Part shown: piece by piece, positions 175 to 27,742 of the stretch
How the letters are laid out: each line of letters opens with the position of its first letter
Numbering within the stretch: position 1 is the first letter of the stretch
From: Candidatus Bathyarchaeota archaeon
Lineage (GTDB): Archaea > Thermoproteota > Bathyarchaeia > 40CM-2-53-6
DNA: 34,482 nucleotides
Assembly (NCBI GenBank): GCA_005888755.1
Contig: VBBQ01000014.1
Span: 1-34,482 of the forward strand
Direction of reading: 5' to 3'
Notes under the pieces: generated by a model
Told to the model about the DNA's origin: nothing
Database searches by the model: none
What the model saw: only the letters and a program-made list of their open reading frames with translations
Translations under genes and position numbers: made by a program

Positions 175-3100
175 TTACATTTTGTAGATGGGGTCGAGGT
201 ATCCGTCGGCAAAGTATGGTACTGATGCGGTGATGTCGTACATCACATGGTTCCCCGCGGGGGCGAACCCGATGCTTGTTACTGGGACCCAGCCGTTCTG
301 AGTCCAGAGGTCGTCGCCAGCTTTAATCTGCGTAACCGGCATCCATCCAATTGTACCGGTTGCTGTCTTGACCCAGAGGGTCTGCCGCGGGTTCGCATCT
401 ACTCTGAACGGTGTTCCATCGCTGGTGTGAATGATCAGCATGTTGGTTGTGTCCACGACGGTTATCGAGTTAACTACGGAGATAGTGTACGTGCCAGTCG
501 CGGTATCGTAGCCCAACATTTTGTCTCCGACCTCCAGGTTTTGAACCGGAACCTTGGACCCGTCTCCCATCGTGATCAGCGACCCATGGGCAATACTCCC
601 GCCACCACCACCGCAACCGCAGTTGATGCCAACATAGACTGATGCGGAGTGTGACTGTGGCGGCGAGATGCACATACCTGATGCGCATGAGCCTGTGACA
701 GTCATCGTACCGCTACCGCTCCCGCCAGTTATGGTAACAGTTACGGTTCCTTGGCCGCCAGAGGAGAGTGATACGCTCGACGAGCTCAAGGACACCGTCT
801 GGCCACCGGCTGACACAGAGAGGTTAACGGTCCCCCAGAAGCCTCCTAGACTCGTCACCGTGAGCGTGTCTTGAACTGTGGCACCTTGGGTGAGACTGTA
901 GCTGCAACCTGGAGAGCCGCAGCTGAGTGAGACGCTGAAGTCATAGAACAGGACGGTAATGGTCGCAGAAGTATGACTCAGGGGACCGCTCGTGCCTGTG
1001 ACTGTGAAGGTGTAGGTACCGCCTGTAGTTGCAGAGACACCCGGGCTCGAGGTGGCAGAGGTTGTAGACGAGCTTAGGGCGAGGGATGAAGGGTTCAGTG
1101 TTACGCTGAGACCTGGCGAGGCGTTCGCTGTCAACGTCACGGTGCCGGTGAACCCGTTCACACCATTTACAGTCACGCTGCCGAGATAACAAGTGGTTCC
1201 CACCATTACCGGACAAGCATACGTTATCGGACTACTCGGACCGATAGAGAAGTCTCCAGGATAGGAGAGCGCTATGGTCGTTGGGTGCGAGAGAGAGCCT
1301 GAGGAGCCTGTGACTGTGACAGGGTAAGTGCCTGGCGACAACGAAGACGGCACGGTGATAGTTGCCGTGGAAGTACCTGTACCGCCTGATACCACTGGGA
1401 CTGTTGACGGATTGAATGCCACAGTTATGCCAGCGGGAGCGGAGTATGTGAGTGGAACGTTCGCGGAAAATTGGTTGAGACTCGCCAAGGAGATCGTAGA
1501 CGCTACCGAATTTCCCGGTATGACATTGATGGAGTTCGGATTCGCAGAGATGCTGAAGTCTGCAAAGACCGTGATCGGGATCGTTTTGGAGTGTGTAAGT
1601 ACGCCTGTCGGGTCTCCCCCCGTGATAGCGACTGAGTAAGTGTTAGCCGGGGTGGAACTGGTGGTCTGGATTGTCATGATGGATGATGCTGATCCACCGG
1701 CAGGGAGCGAAACGCTTGTAGAACTGAACGATACGCTGGGACCGTTCTGGACAATTGGTGTTACTGTCCCTGACAGGGATATGGTGGTTGCCAAGTTGTT
1801 GATGCTGTTCAGCGTGATCGTGGAAGTTGCTGAATAGACGCCTCCTCCAAGACTAGATGGGGAAGCTGGAGTTGCAGATATGCTGAAGTCGCCTGCGTCA
1901 ACAGTTAGATCAACACTGGTTGAGCGCCACGGACCGTTCGAGCCGAGCTGAACTTGATACGTGATGGAGAGATGGTGGGCGGAAGGATCACCTGTTGGGA
2001 CTGACCATTGAATCACGTCAAATATCATCGAGTCCGCGGCCCAGCAGCACTGCGGAGGGTTTTCTGTTGAGACAGGTACCTCAATATATCCGGTTTGCTG
2101 CGAGGTCGATAATATGTTTTGAACTGTATACTTTGGCGGGTTAGGCTGCGGGTGAAAATATTGAACCACACTGCCCAGAACGATGCCTCCAGTCTCGAGC
2201 GCAAGGCAACCAAGTCCCCCTACGCCAACGACAAAGCAGACGGCTGCTATCGTGACGGCTTCGGTAACCCTTCCGATCGTGGCGTTGAGGAGGCTGTCCT
2301 GAGGGGGTGGGGGGTTAGAAGTGGCAATGTTAAATCCGCGGACGTATGCCTGAAGGAACTCCACTTTCGCGGGGTCGGCTGTTGATTGTTTGTCAACAAC
2401 TATTTTCGAGTCGCCCACGAAGTAGTTTCCGTCGATATAATGCGGGGAACTCATCCAAACGCCCCCTTTCGAGAACGCTGTGGTCTTGTCAGGAAACAGG
2501 GCAAGATAGCCGGAGGCATCTTCGAGGCCCACGAGACCTTTGACACGGTCGGAGGGATCTTCGAACCCGCTTCCAAAGAGCACGTTTCCCATACCATCAA
2601 TCTCGAATGAGAATGTGTTGACGCATGGCCCTCCGAAACATCTGACAGCTCCTCCTGTCGTCATGACATTGCTCCATTGGACACCGAAACCGCAATTCCT
2701 ACTATTGATAATGTACTTGCCGCAATAATCGATCCATATCTGCCCTTGCGTTGTTCCGTCTGATCTTGGTCGATCATCTAGCGACTTAGCTAGAGGCGCA
2801 ATTATCCCGTCTGGAAGATCCACCAAGTTGCCGTTTGAATCTCGATAATCTGGCTTCGGCATGGATGGGACACCACAATTGTTCACGTCACCAGAATATT
2901 GGAACGCTGCCCAGCCATTGCTGCAAATAAATATCTTGGTGTAAGCGGTCCCCCAGAAGTACACCGGCCAATTCATGAAACTGAGGTCGATCCACTGGCC
3001 CTGATTAAGAGATGGACTCCAAGCCGTACAATAACCAGATTGAGGACAAGGTGCGATAACGTTAGCATACCCTTCGATTGAATATGTATGATCCTTCCGG

Positions 3101-3348
3101 GTGTTCTCGCCCGCGAGAATCCGGAGCGTATAGACGTCCGTTCCAGTACCAGCATAGTTTTGCTGGTAATCGTAGTTCTCTACAGACAACCCCGATGTTA
3201 CATCTGTCCCCGGATAAGTGCTTGAGATTGAGACATTTCCATGGTCTCGGTAGCCGTAATGGTAGTTCGGCGAATCCGAGCTTGGTCGATGACCAGACCA
3301 GCTCGACGCTCCGAGGACTGGTGAAAGCACCATCAGTAACGTTAGCAC
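175..3348 (-). CDS. Secreted Ig-repeat surface protein with C-terminal degenerate Hint domain
   Basis: About 1057 residues. A hydrophobic N-terminus ending near Leu-Gly-Ala-Ser looks like a signal peptide. Residues about 110-300 form a Cys-rich beta domain with a SNGW motif, resembling NIDO-like extracellular domains. Near 355-400 lies a hydrophobic segment. Four Ig-like repeats, each opening with Asp-Phe-Ser, start near 487, 596, 699 and 802. After a Gly-rich linker, residues 918-1057 match a Hint (hedgehog/intein) fold: GSLITMGDG near the start, LEVGD, and YFADG near the end. The usual first Cys is Ser, the block-B Thr..His pair is not apparent, and the terminal His-Asn is replaced by Asp-Pro, so self-splicing is unlikely. 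The listed start is GTG. The frame stays open upstream to a stop at 3421-3423, and that stretch adds a basic n-region (RLKHIR) that makes a better signal peptide but has no ATG, GTG or TTG. The true start is therefore uncertain; a CTG near 3382 is possible. Confidence 0.8.
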   Translation of the reverse strand: MLTLLMVLSPVLGASSWSGHRPSSDSPNYHYGYRDHGNVSISSTYPGTDVTSGLSVENYDYQQNYAGTGTDVYTLRILAGENTRKDHTYSIEGYANVIAPCPQSGYCTAWSPSLNQGQWIDLSFMNWPVYFWGTAYTKIFICSNGWAAFQYSGDVNNCGVPSMPKPDYRDSNGNLVDLPDGIIAPLAKSLDDRPRSDGTTQGQIWIDYCGKYIINSRNCGFGVQWSNVMTTGGAVRCFGGPCVNTFSFEIDGMGNVLFGSGFEDPSDRVKGLVGLEDASGYLALFPDKTTAFSKGGVWMSSPHYIDGNYFVGDSKIVVDKQSTADPAKVEFLQAYVRGFNIATSNPPPPQDSLLNATIGRVTEAVTIAAVCFVVGVGGLGCLALETGGIVLGSVVQYFHPQPNPPKYTVQNILSTSQQTGYIEVPVSTENPPQCCWAADSMIFDVIQWSVPTGDPSAHHLSITYQVQLGSNGPWRSTSVDLTVDAGDFSISATPASPSSLGGGVYSATSTITLNSINNLATTISLSGTVTPIVQNGPSVSFSSTSVSLPAGGSASSIMTIQTTSSTPANTYSVAITGGDPTGVLTHSKTIPITVFADFSISANPNSINVIPGNSVASTISLASLNQFSANVPLTYSAPAGITVAFNPSTVPVVSGGTGTSTATITVPSSLSPGTYPVTVTGSSGSLSHPTTIALSYPGDFSIGPSSPITYACPVMVGTTCYLGSVTVNGVNGFTGTVTLTANASPGLSVTLNPSSLALSSSTTSATSSPGVSATTGGTYTFTVTGTSGPLSHTSATITVLFYDFSVSLSCGSPGCSYSLTQGATVQDTLTVTSLGGFWGTVNLSVSAGGQTVSLSSSSVSLSSGGQGTVTVTITGGSGSGTMTVTGSCASGMCISPPQSHSASVYVGINCGCGGGGGSIAHGSLITMGDGSKVPVQNLEVGDKMLGYDTATGTYTISVVNSITVVDTTNMLIIHTSDGTPFRVDANPRQTLWVKTATGTIGWMPVTQIKAGDDLWTQNGWVPVTSIGFAPAGNHVMYDITASVPYFADGYLDPIYKM

Positions 3349-9399: not shown

Positions 9400-9427
9400 T
9401 GGAGCCGGGGGTGGGAGTCGAACCCAC

Positions 9428-9450
9428 TTCAGCCATCCATTTCTGGATGC
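9428..9450 (-). other. tRNA-Cys intron at the variable-loop/T-stem junction (23 nt, position 48/49)
   Basis: A full hBHBh' motif is visible. Outer helix CCCG/TGGG, 5' strand TAGT pairing with GCTG as the 4-bp central helix (two G-U pairs), bulges AA^G on both sides, and an inner CATCCA/TGGATG stem closed by a GAAA tetraloop. Excision leaves variable loop AGTAA joined to the T-stem GTGGG, which is what a cysteine tRNA needs. Confidence 0.88.
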
Positions 9451-9461
9451 TTACTACGGGT

Positions 9462-9476
9462 TGCTACGAGATGTTT
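9462..9476 (-). other. tRNA-Cys anticodon-loop intron (15 nt, position 37/38)
   Basis: Canonical archaeal position. The central helix CTGC/GTAG (one G-U pair) lies directly on the anticodon stem, with bulges AG^A and CA^A and an 8-base loop. Removal restores the 7-base loop CTGCAGA. Confidence 0.9.
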
Positions 9477-9499
9477 CTGCAGCCCGTCGCCTGAGCCGA

Positions 9500-9515
9500 T
9501 CGGCCTTCGGTGGAC
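9500..9515 (-). other. tRNA-Cys D-loop intron (16 nt, after position 15)
   Basis: Inferred BHB: D-stem strand GGCT (positions 10-13) pairs with GGCC inside the insert, with 3-base bulges CT^G and GA^T. Excision leaves a 9-base D-loop. There is no inner stem, and neighbouring pairings could shift the junction, so this is the least certain of the three. The tRNA-Arg gene in this window has an intron at the same site with the same layout. Confidence 0.65.
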
Positions 9516-9569
9516 AGAGCCAACCCCGGCCTCGTGCCCCCGGCGATTTGGACTGCGCTTTTCGGAACT

Positions 9570-25336: not shown

Positions 25337-27349
25337 TTACATTCGTTCCGCAAGTTCTAGCCCAAGAAGCCCAGCTAGGGTCTTCAAGACCGTTCTGACG
25401 GCTAGAACAATGGCGACTCTTTCCCACTTGAGTTCGTCGTTGCTGACGTGGGAGATGTCGGATTTTTCGTAGAACTCGTGAAATCTCTGGGCAAGCAGAT
25501 TGGCGGACAGGCAGAGCAGGGTTGGGTTGAGGTCATCGGCGGCCTCAGCGAATGTTTCAGGAAGCTTGGAAAGCTCTAGGACTAGCGCCTGTTCGACCGG
25601 GTCTGTCAATAGGTTGAACGCCTTTGGTTCGGCTATCTTCCCTAGCTTCCGAAGAATTCCGGAACTCCTTGTGTATGCATAATTGATGAAAGCGGCGCTG
25701 TTCGTTTCGAAGTTTAGGACCTTGTCCCAAACAAAGTTCGTGGCTTTGACAGCTTCAACTGAGAGAATGGCATACCTAACGGCTGAAATCGCGATTCTCT
25801 CAGCTGTCCTTTGCCTAAGCTCCTCGGGAATGCTTGGCGATCGTCGATCCACCTCTGTCTTCGCGCGAGTGAGAGTTTCGTCTAGGACTTGATCGAAGGT
25901 CACGTACCGGCCCCGCCTGGCCGACATCCCTTGTCCTTCTAGCAACATGTGGCCGATGGGGAAGTAGATGAACTTCTCAGCCTCCTTCCTGTGCCCGGTA
26001 ATCCAGAATGCCACCTTGACTTGGAACTGTGCAAGAGACTGTTCAGAACCGATCACATTGATGACCCTCTCAGCGTTCTCGAACTTGTAAAGCGTGTATG
26101 CAATGTCTCGAGTTGCGTAGAGGGAGGTTCCATCGGACCGGAGCAGAGTTAGCGGGGGAAACTCGAACGTGGGCGACACTCCAAGTGTCTCGCGTAAGCC
26201 GAATTTTTCGACTGCCTTGGCTACGTCGAGCTCTAATGCTCCTCCCTTGTTGAAGGTGAAACCTGACTCTTTCAGCCGGCCGACGAGTTCAGCGACCCGT
26301 CCCGTCCAGAGGAGATCACTCTCCCAGTCCCACTGGTCGAAGCGGATGCGAGCTCTTCGCAGAGTCTCCGCGAACCCCGTCAGAATTATCTGGGTGACAC
26401 GCCTCACCAGCGCCGTGGTATCAAGATCTTTTTTCTCGTACTTCCTGATGAGGTCGCTGATCGATTTCTCAGGGTCTGGGTCCTTGGAGATTAGCTTGTT
26501 CAGTCTGTCGAATTCTTGTGGGTATTTGCTTTGAAGGTCTGCAGCTACGCCTACCCACTTGTCGAGGGATTTGGTTGTGGCAACGAGGTCCGTGTCTGAC
26601 GCGTTTGTCTTCTTGAATAGCACAAGTCGTTTCTTCAGTTCCTCAATCTCGACAAGCGTTGCGGTCACGGAGTAGATTTTTCCGATGAAATGATCTGGCT
26701 TCCCCTCTGGAGTCGGCTCGCCGAGTAGTTTGTAGCCATAGGCCATGATGACTACCTGTCTGCCCGTGTCGTCAATGTAGAAATGGGTCCGAACGTTGTG
26801 TCCTCTCGCCGCCAAGAGGCGCGCAAGTGCGTCTCCGAATATCGCGCCCTTGGCTGTGCCAATGTGGATTGGTCTGGCGGGGTTCGCGCTAGTATGCTCA
26901 ACAACGGTCCTCTCTGGAGCATGCGTCTTGAGGAGTCCGTACTCGGATCCATACTGTCGAACGGACTTGAGAGTGAGCTCTGTGAGCCTTGCAAGGTTTG
27001 CGCGGAAATTCACGTAGCCAGGCTCAGTCGCCTCAACCGATTCGACAAGGTCGAGTTTTGCGACTTTCTTTGTGGTCTCTGCTAACGTCTTGGCTACTTC
27101 GATTGGCCTCTTCTTCTGGATTTTTGCTAGCTCGAAACTCAGCGAGCTTGCTAGGTGTCCAAAGGTCGGATTGGGTGGATCTTCGAGGGTTGACCCAATA
27201 TCGAGGCTTGGAAAGCTCTGTCCCGAGGTTTTCTTGAGAGATGAGTATCCCGCTTTCAACGCGGTCTCGCATTCGCGCCTGAAAGATCCGAAAGGGTCGG
27301 ACTGATCCTGTCTCTCATGTCCAATTGTCTGTACCAAGTCCGAATTCAC
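25337..27349 (-). CDS. argS: Arginyl-tRNA synthetase
   Basis: 670 residues, class I. Residues about 20-120 form the Add-1 domain that recognises the tRNA D-loop. The first signature is HTSANPARPIHIGTAKGAIFGD with HIGT (162-165) in place of HIGH. FYIDDTGRQV follows. The second signature region is GMSARRGRYVTFDQVLDE (near 465), replacing KMSKS; arginine enzymes often vary here. The C-terminus is the helical anticodon-binding domain ending LAGLLGLELAERM, with the family's terminal Met. A GTG start is read at 27349; no better start is apparent. An intron-bearing tRNA-Arg begins 142 bases away on the other strand. Confidence 0.96.
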   Translation of the reverse strand: MNSDLVQTIGHERQDQSDPFGSFRRECETALKAGYSSLKKTSGQSFPSLDIGSTLEDPPNPTFGHLASSLSFELAKIQKKRPIEVAKTLAETTKKVAKLDLVESVEATEPGYVNFRANLARLTELTLKSVRQYGSEYGLLKTHAPERTVVEHTSANPARPIHIGTAKGAIFGDALARLLAARGHNVRTHFYIDDTGRQVVIMAYGYKLLGEPTPEGKPDHFIGKIYSVTATLVEIEELKKRLVLFKKTNASDTDLVATTKSLDKWVGVAADLQSKYPQEFDRLNKLISKDPDPEKSISDLIRKYEKKDLDTTALVRRVTQIILTGFAETLRRARIRFDQWDWESDLLWTGRVAELVGRLKESGFTFNKGGALELDVAKAVEKFGLRETLGVSPTFEFPPLTLLRSDGTSLYATRDIAYTLYKFENAERVINVIGSEQSLAQFQVKVAFWITGHRKEAEKFIYFPIGHMLLEGQGMSARRGRYVTFDQVLDETLTRAKTEVDRRSPSIPEELRQRTAERIAISAVRYAILSVEAVKATNFVWDKVLNFETNSAAFINYAYTRSSGILRKLGKIAEPKAFNLLTDPVEQALVLELSKLPETFAEAADDLNPTLLCLSANLLAQRFHEFYEKSDISHVSNDELKWERVAIVLAVRTVLKTLAGLLGLELAERM

Positions 27350-27466: not shown

Positions 27467-27506
27467 ATGCCGGCCCGACAGAGCGCGAGACGGGACCGTA
27501 GTCTAG

Positions 27507-27542
27507 GTCGCGGGCGACCGAAATACATCCCCGCGAGGACAA
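27507..27542 (+). other. tRNA-Arg D-loop intron (36 nt, after position 15)
   Basis: The D-stem strand GTCT pairs with a second GGAC inside the intron (27537-27540), forming the 4-bp central helix; bulges AG^G and AA^C. A perfect 7-bp inner stem TCGCGGG/CCCGCGA stabilises the intron. The intronic GGAC is identical to the true D-stem strand GGAC at 27551-27554. No outer helix is evident, so the motif is the relaxed type. Confidence 0.88.
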
Positions 27543-27566
27543 CCAGGATAGGACATCGGGCTCCGA

Positions 27567-27584
27567 CACCCATGGAGTGGAGAG
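27567..27584 (+). other. tRNA-Arg anticodon-loop intron (18 nt, position 37/38)
   Basis: Central helix CTCC/GGAG is fully Watson-Crick, stacked on the anticodon stem, with bulges GA^C and AG^A. Removal restores loop CTCCGAA. Confidence 0.92.
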
Positions 27585-27742
27585 ACCCGAAGATCGTGGG
27601 TTCAAATCCCACCGGTCCCGCTTTGACGTCATGGACTTTGTACTGCTTTCATTGGCTTTTCAAACTCAGTCACAGTGAGCGAGCACCTAGTTTCACTGGG
27701 TTCTGAGATGGGAGTCTTCTATGGATTCTCCCGGGTTAACAG

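Follow-up and report, generated by a model that had tools for sequence, protein, structure and literature searches.

The window analysed here, a stretch of 34,482 nt, is contig C9 of a 2.0-Mb soil Bathyarchaeota genome (G000); the genomes compared with it are draft MAGs. It carries a tRNA-Arg(CCG) gene on the plus strand (27492-27620). An arginyl-tRNA synthetase (ArgRS) gene (25337-27349, minus strand; NF002446, 597 bits) lies divergent to it, and relatives of this ArgRS among named records come mostly from soil Bathyarchaeota MAGs (best match, 92% identity, VBBR01000082.1). Elsewhere in the window (175-3348, minus strand) is a gene for a repetitive, secreted-looking protein of 1057 aa. Judged by eye, its C-terminus (SIAHGSLITMGDGSKVPVQNLEVGDKMLGYD) is similar to a Hint-type domain, and no NCBIfam match scores above cut-off.

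Neither ARAGORN in bacterial mode nor Rfam at gathering score reported a tRNA in the window, because the tRNA-Arg gene is broken by two introns. When introns were allowed, ARAGORN returned a tRNA-Arg with a 2-kb intron, which is an artefact, and a false Thr call. Introns were located with a purpose-written parser that combines BHB scoring with cloverleaf scoring and does not handle T-arm introns. The gene is parsed as GGGACCGTAGTCTAG^gtcgcgggcgaccgaaatacatccccgcgaggacaa^CCAGGATAGGACATCGGGCTCCGA^cacccatggagtggagag^ACCCGAAGATCGTGGGTTCAAATCCCACCGGTCCCG, and removal of both introns yields a standard cloverleaf by parse and by folding. Its features, all on the plus strand, are listed below.

27492-27620, plus strand: tRNA-Arg(CCG) gene with two introns, mature length 75 nt to G73 (parse; orthologues in 14 genomes)
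27501-27504, plus strand: D-stem 5' strand GTCT (positions 10-13), exon strand of the BHB central helix (parse, 43-gene comparison, covariation)
27505-27507, plus strand: 5' bulge A14 G15 ^ G with predicted 5' splice site 27506/27507 (3-nt BHB bulge; exon AG invariant in 43 genes)
27507-27542, plus strand: D-loop intron of 36 nt, insertion site 15/16 (parse; intronless Arg-CCG orthologues outside the family, L053 and L060)
27508-27514, plus strand: 5' strand of the h' helix, TCGCGGG (parse, covariation)
27530-27536, plus strand: 3' strand of the h' helix, CCCGCGA (parse, covariation)
27537-27540, plus strand: intronic GGAC, intron strand of the BHB central helix (all four positions paired in 43 of 43 genes)
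27541-27543, plus strand: 3' bulge AA ^ C16 with predicted 3' splice site 27542/27543 (orthologue comparison)
27551-27554, plus strand: exonic D-stem 3' strand GGAC (positions 22-25; sequence reading, parse)
27567-27584, plus strand: canonical 37/38 intron of 18 nt with full hBHBh' motif (BHB score 11.2, parse)

The first-pass annotation had described an intron at 15/16 ending in GGAC-AA and a D-stem strand GGAC, and both are confirmed, at 27537-27540 and 27551-27554, respectively.

Recurrence and sequence context of position 15/16 introns

A BLAST search with the gene recovered Arg-CCG genes with a 15/16 intron in 15 genomes of this soil Bathyarchaeota family, the window's own included. Thirteen of the further carriers belong to the same genus and one (G018) to another genus of the family; recurrence in 14 further genomes means that the intron is not a chance reading. 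Among these orthologues the mature exons are near-identical and the intron ranges from 32 to 42 nt. In fetched stretches, an intron-bearing tRNA-Arg lies near argS in nine of 18 named ArgRS loci (e.g., L085, L094); these nine records probably overlap with the genomes compared. Outside the family, the Arg-CCG genes L053 and L060 lack the intron, suggesting that it was gained in the family's ancestor or earlier.

We gathered tRNA genes from the window's own genome and four relatives with the Rfam tRNA model and fetched stretches, obtaining incomplete sets of about 20-30 per genome. In G000 (loci L001-L030 and L252-L255), introns interrupt 25 of the 27 confidently parsed tRNAs (46 introns, 34 non-canonical), and the intron load of the four relatives is similar. 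The 15/16 site is occupied in three tRNAs, Arg-CCG, Gly-CCC, and Pro-CGG, which searches extended to 15, 12, and 16 genes, respectively (43 in total). A Gly-TCC gene of G022 (L263), from another family of the same order, also has a 15/16 intron. Recurrence of D-stem-pairing 15/16 introns in relatives, which the first-pass annotation had proposed to look for, is thereby found in Arg-CCG, Gly-CCC, Pro-CGG, and Gly-TCC. No such intron was present in Gly-CCC from four genomes outside the family (G021, G025, G026, G028), nor among the recovered tRNAs (incomplete sets) of two comparison genomes from the same phylum, tentatively taken for Thermoproteales rich in introns. When 300 genomes of the phylum were scanned for a GGAC-specific 15/16 pattern, most matches were chance ones, as a reversed-pattern control performed similarly; among matches with parsed context, tRNAs were found only in the window's own genome and G022.

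The 15/16 introns were seen only where tRNA positions 10-15 read GTCYAG (Arg-CCG, Gly-CCC, Pro-CGG), and none occurred in any collected tRNA with another D-stem. The same motif is found without a 15/16 intron in Trp, Pro-GGG, Val-CAC, and Val-GAC, the last of which has a 14/15 intron instead. More generally, introns here prefer A at +1 of the 5' splice site (46 of 70) and A at -2 of the 3' site (50 of 70). This comparison supports the view that the 15/16 site is favoured where positions 10-15 read GTCYAG, and to that extent the "preferred insertion rule" of the first-pass annotation stands.

Its other suggestion, a common origin, fared less well. Intron transposition has been proposed for Thermoproteales, and a single origin of the Arg, Gly, and Pro introns by this route would fit their shared site, their shared GTCYAG context, and the presence of all three across the family. 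The Gly and Pro introns are also borderline similar (shuffle fraction 0.048), a weak signal because six pairs were tested. However, once the splice motif is removed the Arg intron resembles those of Gly and Pro no more than shuffled sequence does (fractions 0.996 and 0.998), and lengths and helices differ among the introns. We therefore regard a shared origin by transposition as unlikely.

A tRNA-Cys(GCA) gene on the minus strand of the window had been proposed as a second case with the same design at the same place. Its features are as follows.

9403-9530, minus strand: tRNA-Cys(GCA) gene with three introns (parse, 17 orthologues)
9506-9522, minus strand: first intron, TGGCTCTGTCCACCGAA, best placed at 8/9 (orthologue alignment, parse)
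9462-9476, minus strand: 37/38 intron (parse)
9428-9450, minus strand: third intron, at the border of variable loop and T-stem (parse)

Across the 17 orthologues, the GGC[T/A]..CT stretch varies in base and length, and GGCCGATCGG..CAGGCG is nearly invariant. An intron after position 15 was rejected, as it would put indels and a T/A change of congeners inside the supposed exon 10-15. With the intron at 8/9, all of the variation is intronic, and the mature D-arm gains A14 and a better stem. Thus, tRNA-Cys has no 15/16 intron, and the proposed parallel falls; the exact register of the 8/9 intron is less certain than that of the Arg intron because its central helix contains one mismatch.

Predicted pairing of the D-stem strand before and after splicing

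All 43 genes have 3-nt bulges and an intron tetramer that makes four standard pairs with positions 10-13. We assessed covariation with 27 distinct trimmed sequences, pooled from the three tRNA families in an alignment cut to the structure. The BHB structure is paired in 92.6% of cells (shuffled mean, 70.2), and the numbers from this set lean toward the structure owing to the way the alignment was cut. The covariation score is 0.663 against a shuffled mean of 0.274, with none of 500 shuffles as high and slid versions reaching at most 0.204, a significance inflated by relatedness because the alignment pools three tRNA families. Pairing is complete in the central helix (100% of cells) and reaches 87.7% in the h' helix beside the 5' bulge, where double changes occur in all six scored pairs and are visible within single tRNA families too. 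The native D-stem is paired in 85.2% of cells, with 13-22 unpaired in 16 of 27 sequences. The outer exon helix (h) of the strict hBHBh' motif scores only 0.2 for Arg; thus, the motif is assigned to the relaxed HBh' type, which is known from PMC6379350. On these comparisons of sequence, a relaxed HBh' intron at 15/16 is well supported.

Folding predictions for the G000 precursor place positions 10-13 with the intron at a probability of 0.89-0.91 and with the exon at 0.01; constrained energies are -55.5 kcal/mol for the intronic pairing and -52.8 kcal/mol for the exonic pairing, 2.7 apart. In the spliced form, the D-stem is predicted to form with the exonic GGAC. Two other members, Gly-CCC of G018 and Gly-TCC of G022, fold otherwise, and for neither does the model prefer the BHB form. 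Folding and covariation together bear out, at the level of prediction, the earlier proposal that GTCT pairs with intronic GGAC before splicing and with exonic GGAC after it.

The proposed sequence of events would begin with the intron end (GGRY-NN^) pairing with positions 10-13 to give the 4-bp central helix of the BHB motif. EndA would then cut after G15 and before C16, a ligase would join the exons, and the D-arm would refold, so that the D-stem 5' strand would have two alternative partners, the intron before cutting and 22-25 afterwards. The genome encodes two EndA-like genes, alpha (L102) and beta (L103). The best PDB match of alpha is the A. pernix alpha subunit (3p1z; E 4e-42, nearly whole length), with Tyr, His, and Lys catalytic residues in VYEHG, DHAP, and VRKQF and with K42 aligned to K44 of the Crenarchaea-specific loop; beta lacks the corresponding catalytic triad by inspection. 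A separate alpha with triad and loop lysine, together with a beta without the triad, leads us to predict an (alpha-beta)2 enzyme. Crenarchaeal-type (alpha-beta)2 EndA accepts relaxed motifs. Broad specificity has been attributed to the loop lysine, and D-loops are among the reported locations of BHB motifs (PMC6379350). The Bathyarchaeota enzyme is like A. pernix (alpha-beta)2 EndA in alpha alignment, catalytic residues, and loop lysine; as predicted, it would be a heterotetramer that cleaves relaxed motifs.

We considered whether the cut might instead fall at 14/15 or 16/17, or whether the stretch is unspliced and the gene a pseudogene. The 14/15 parse scores nearly as high as the 15/16 parse (30.9 versus 31.5), but the 15/16 product, AGCCAGG, agrees with the D-loop sequences (AGTCAGG, AGCCTGG) seen in other tRNAs of this set and in orthologues that lack the intron, and the mature exons have been kept in 15 genomes. 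Both of these alternatives are very improbable in our view, and we conclude that the 36-nt element is very likely a relaxed BHB pre-tRNA intron at 15/16 that is removed by the predicted crenarchaeal-type (alpha-beta)2 EndA.

The first-pass annotation had further taken an exact copy of the D-stem 3' strand to be a design principle of the intron. Although pairing with 10-13 is universal among the 43 genes, the intron tetramer equals exon positions 22-25 in only 13 of them, all Arg; in two Arg genes the tetramer is GGAT. A local duplication of the D-stem 3' strand, with the GGAC copy as its relic, could have given rise to such an intron, and AGGACA does occur in both intron and exon of Arg-CCG and of the G022 Gly-TCC. 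However, the A after the tetramer fits the general splice-site consensus described above (A at -2), the intron tetramers of Gly-CCC are GGAC (1), GGGC (10), and GGGT (1) against an exonic TGAC, and Pro-CGG has intronic GGAC against exonic AGAT. (The Pro 22-25 strand was read from L371, a single-intron gene, because a second intron interrupts the other Pro genes.) In both Gly and Pro, positions 10-13 form more pairs with the intron strand than with the native D-stem strand. These existing Gly and Pro data largely refute duplication as a general account, and we consider it highly unlikely. Judged from sequence, what is conserved is complementarity to the exon, a requirement of BHB splicing, rather than copying; the likeness between the intron strand and the D-stem 3' strand arises from their shared need to complement 10-13. 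The copy in Arg follows from BHB geometry: when the cut lies two bases beyond a stem strand, that strand becomes the BHB helix.

Predicted stem-strand exchange across the clade and its significance

We next compared 69 distinct introns with a full central helix from five genomes (G000, G005, G014, G016, and G018). Of the 50 non-canonical ones, 32 have three or more of their four exon bases in a mature stem. All four lie there in 18 introns, and in nine of the 18 the tetramer is identical to the native partner. These nine lie at 8/9 and 9/10 (acceptor stem), at 15/16 (D-stem), and in the 44/45-45/46 region (anticodon stem); for example, CGGG in tRNA-Lys(CTT) at 9/10 and GGCG in tRNA-Asn(GTT) at 8/9 repeat the partner strand at the intron 3' end. 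The parser searches for complementarity, which is therefore partly built in, unlike identity and position. Stem swaps at several stems therefore appear to be a common consequence of where introns sit.

Two further observations concern other sites. In tRNA-Val(GAC) (L016 and orthologues), a 14/15 intron was parsed in five of five genomes; its central helix uses 9-12, and it too opens the D-stem. Three Gly-type tRNA genes (L383, L389, L385) show an apparent T-arm intron (CCCGGG..CGGG-NN^TTCAAAT) with the same stem-strand exchange.

Could the D-loop intron nevertheless be a dedicated switch, under selection to keep the D-arm from closing and so to delay its modification or folding until splicing? 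The predicted occupancy of the intronic partner, about 0.9, is in line with this idea, as is conservation of the site across the family. The genome encodes ArcTGT (TgtA; TIGR00432, 476 bits versus a cut-off of 350), which modifies G15, the archaeosine site, located here in the 5' bulge. ArcTGT has been reported to recognise the D-arm backbone (PMC11298593). However, similar swaps occur at acceptor and anticodon stems, sister families have intronless orthologues, and no further selection is needed, because every BHB intron at 15/16 must use 10-13. A dedicated switch is accordingly doubtful. Of the "strand-swap device" in the first-pass annotation, the exchange of partners stands as real in prediction, but "device" is overstated, since the swap is imposed by BHB geometry at this site. 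A broader and equally doubtful proposal is that Arg-CCG, Gly-CCC, and Pro-CGG pass a maturation checkpoint set by D-stem exchange, and that the clade's non-canonical introns imitate strands of several mature stems. On this view, the D-arm would come into being only with splicing; until then, positions 10-13 would be paired with the intron and G15 would lie in a bulge where the cut falls, and D-arm modifications, including archaeosine at G15, would be ordered relative to splicing.

Non-canonical D-arm BHB introns of archaeal tRNAs have been reviewed (PMC6379350, PMC12397907) and are described in Caldiarchaeum subterraneum (PMC3293823). The present introns resemble them in their BHB-type motif, in the presence of several introns per tRNA, in relaxed motifs, and in being (as predicted here) EndA substrates, but their host differs, being a clade of soil Bathyarchaeota. 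The multi-intron tRNAs of Thermoproteales (Sugahara 2008 and Fujishima 2010, cited in PMC4033280 and PMC8450103) are similar, with most tRNA genes interrupted and with two or three, mostly non-canonical introns. As in canonical 37/38 introns, the 5' exon pairs with the intron 3' end in the central helix; in the canonical case, however, the anticodon loop supplies the exon strand, displacing no mature stem, and the anticodon stem serves as the outer helix. In the few open-access papers searched, no description of the 15/16 site or of D-stem partner exchange was found, and our literature search found no tRNA intron study for soil Bathyarchaeota.

The tRNA-Arg case is one of archaeal tRNA splicing of the ordinary kind, set apart by an unusual intron site, and the advance is modest because known BHB geometry accounts for most of it. 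What it adds for soil Bathyarchaeota is a set of recurrent, comparatively supported D-loop introns in which splicing would decide the partner of a mature stem strand. Whether D-arm modification waits on splicing in these archaea is now a simply testable question.
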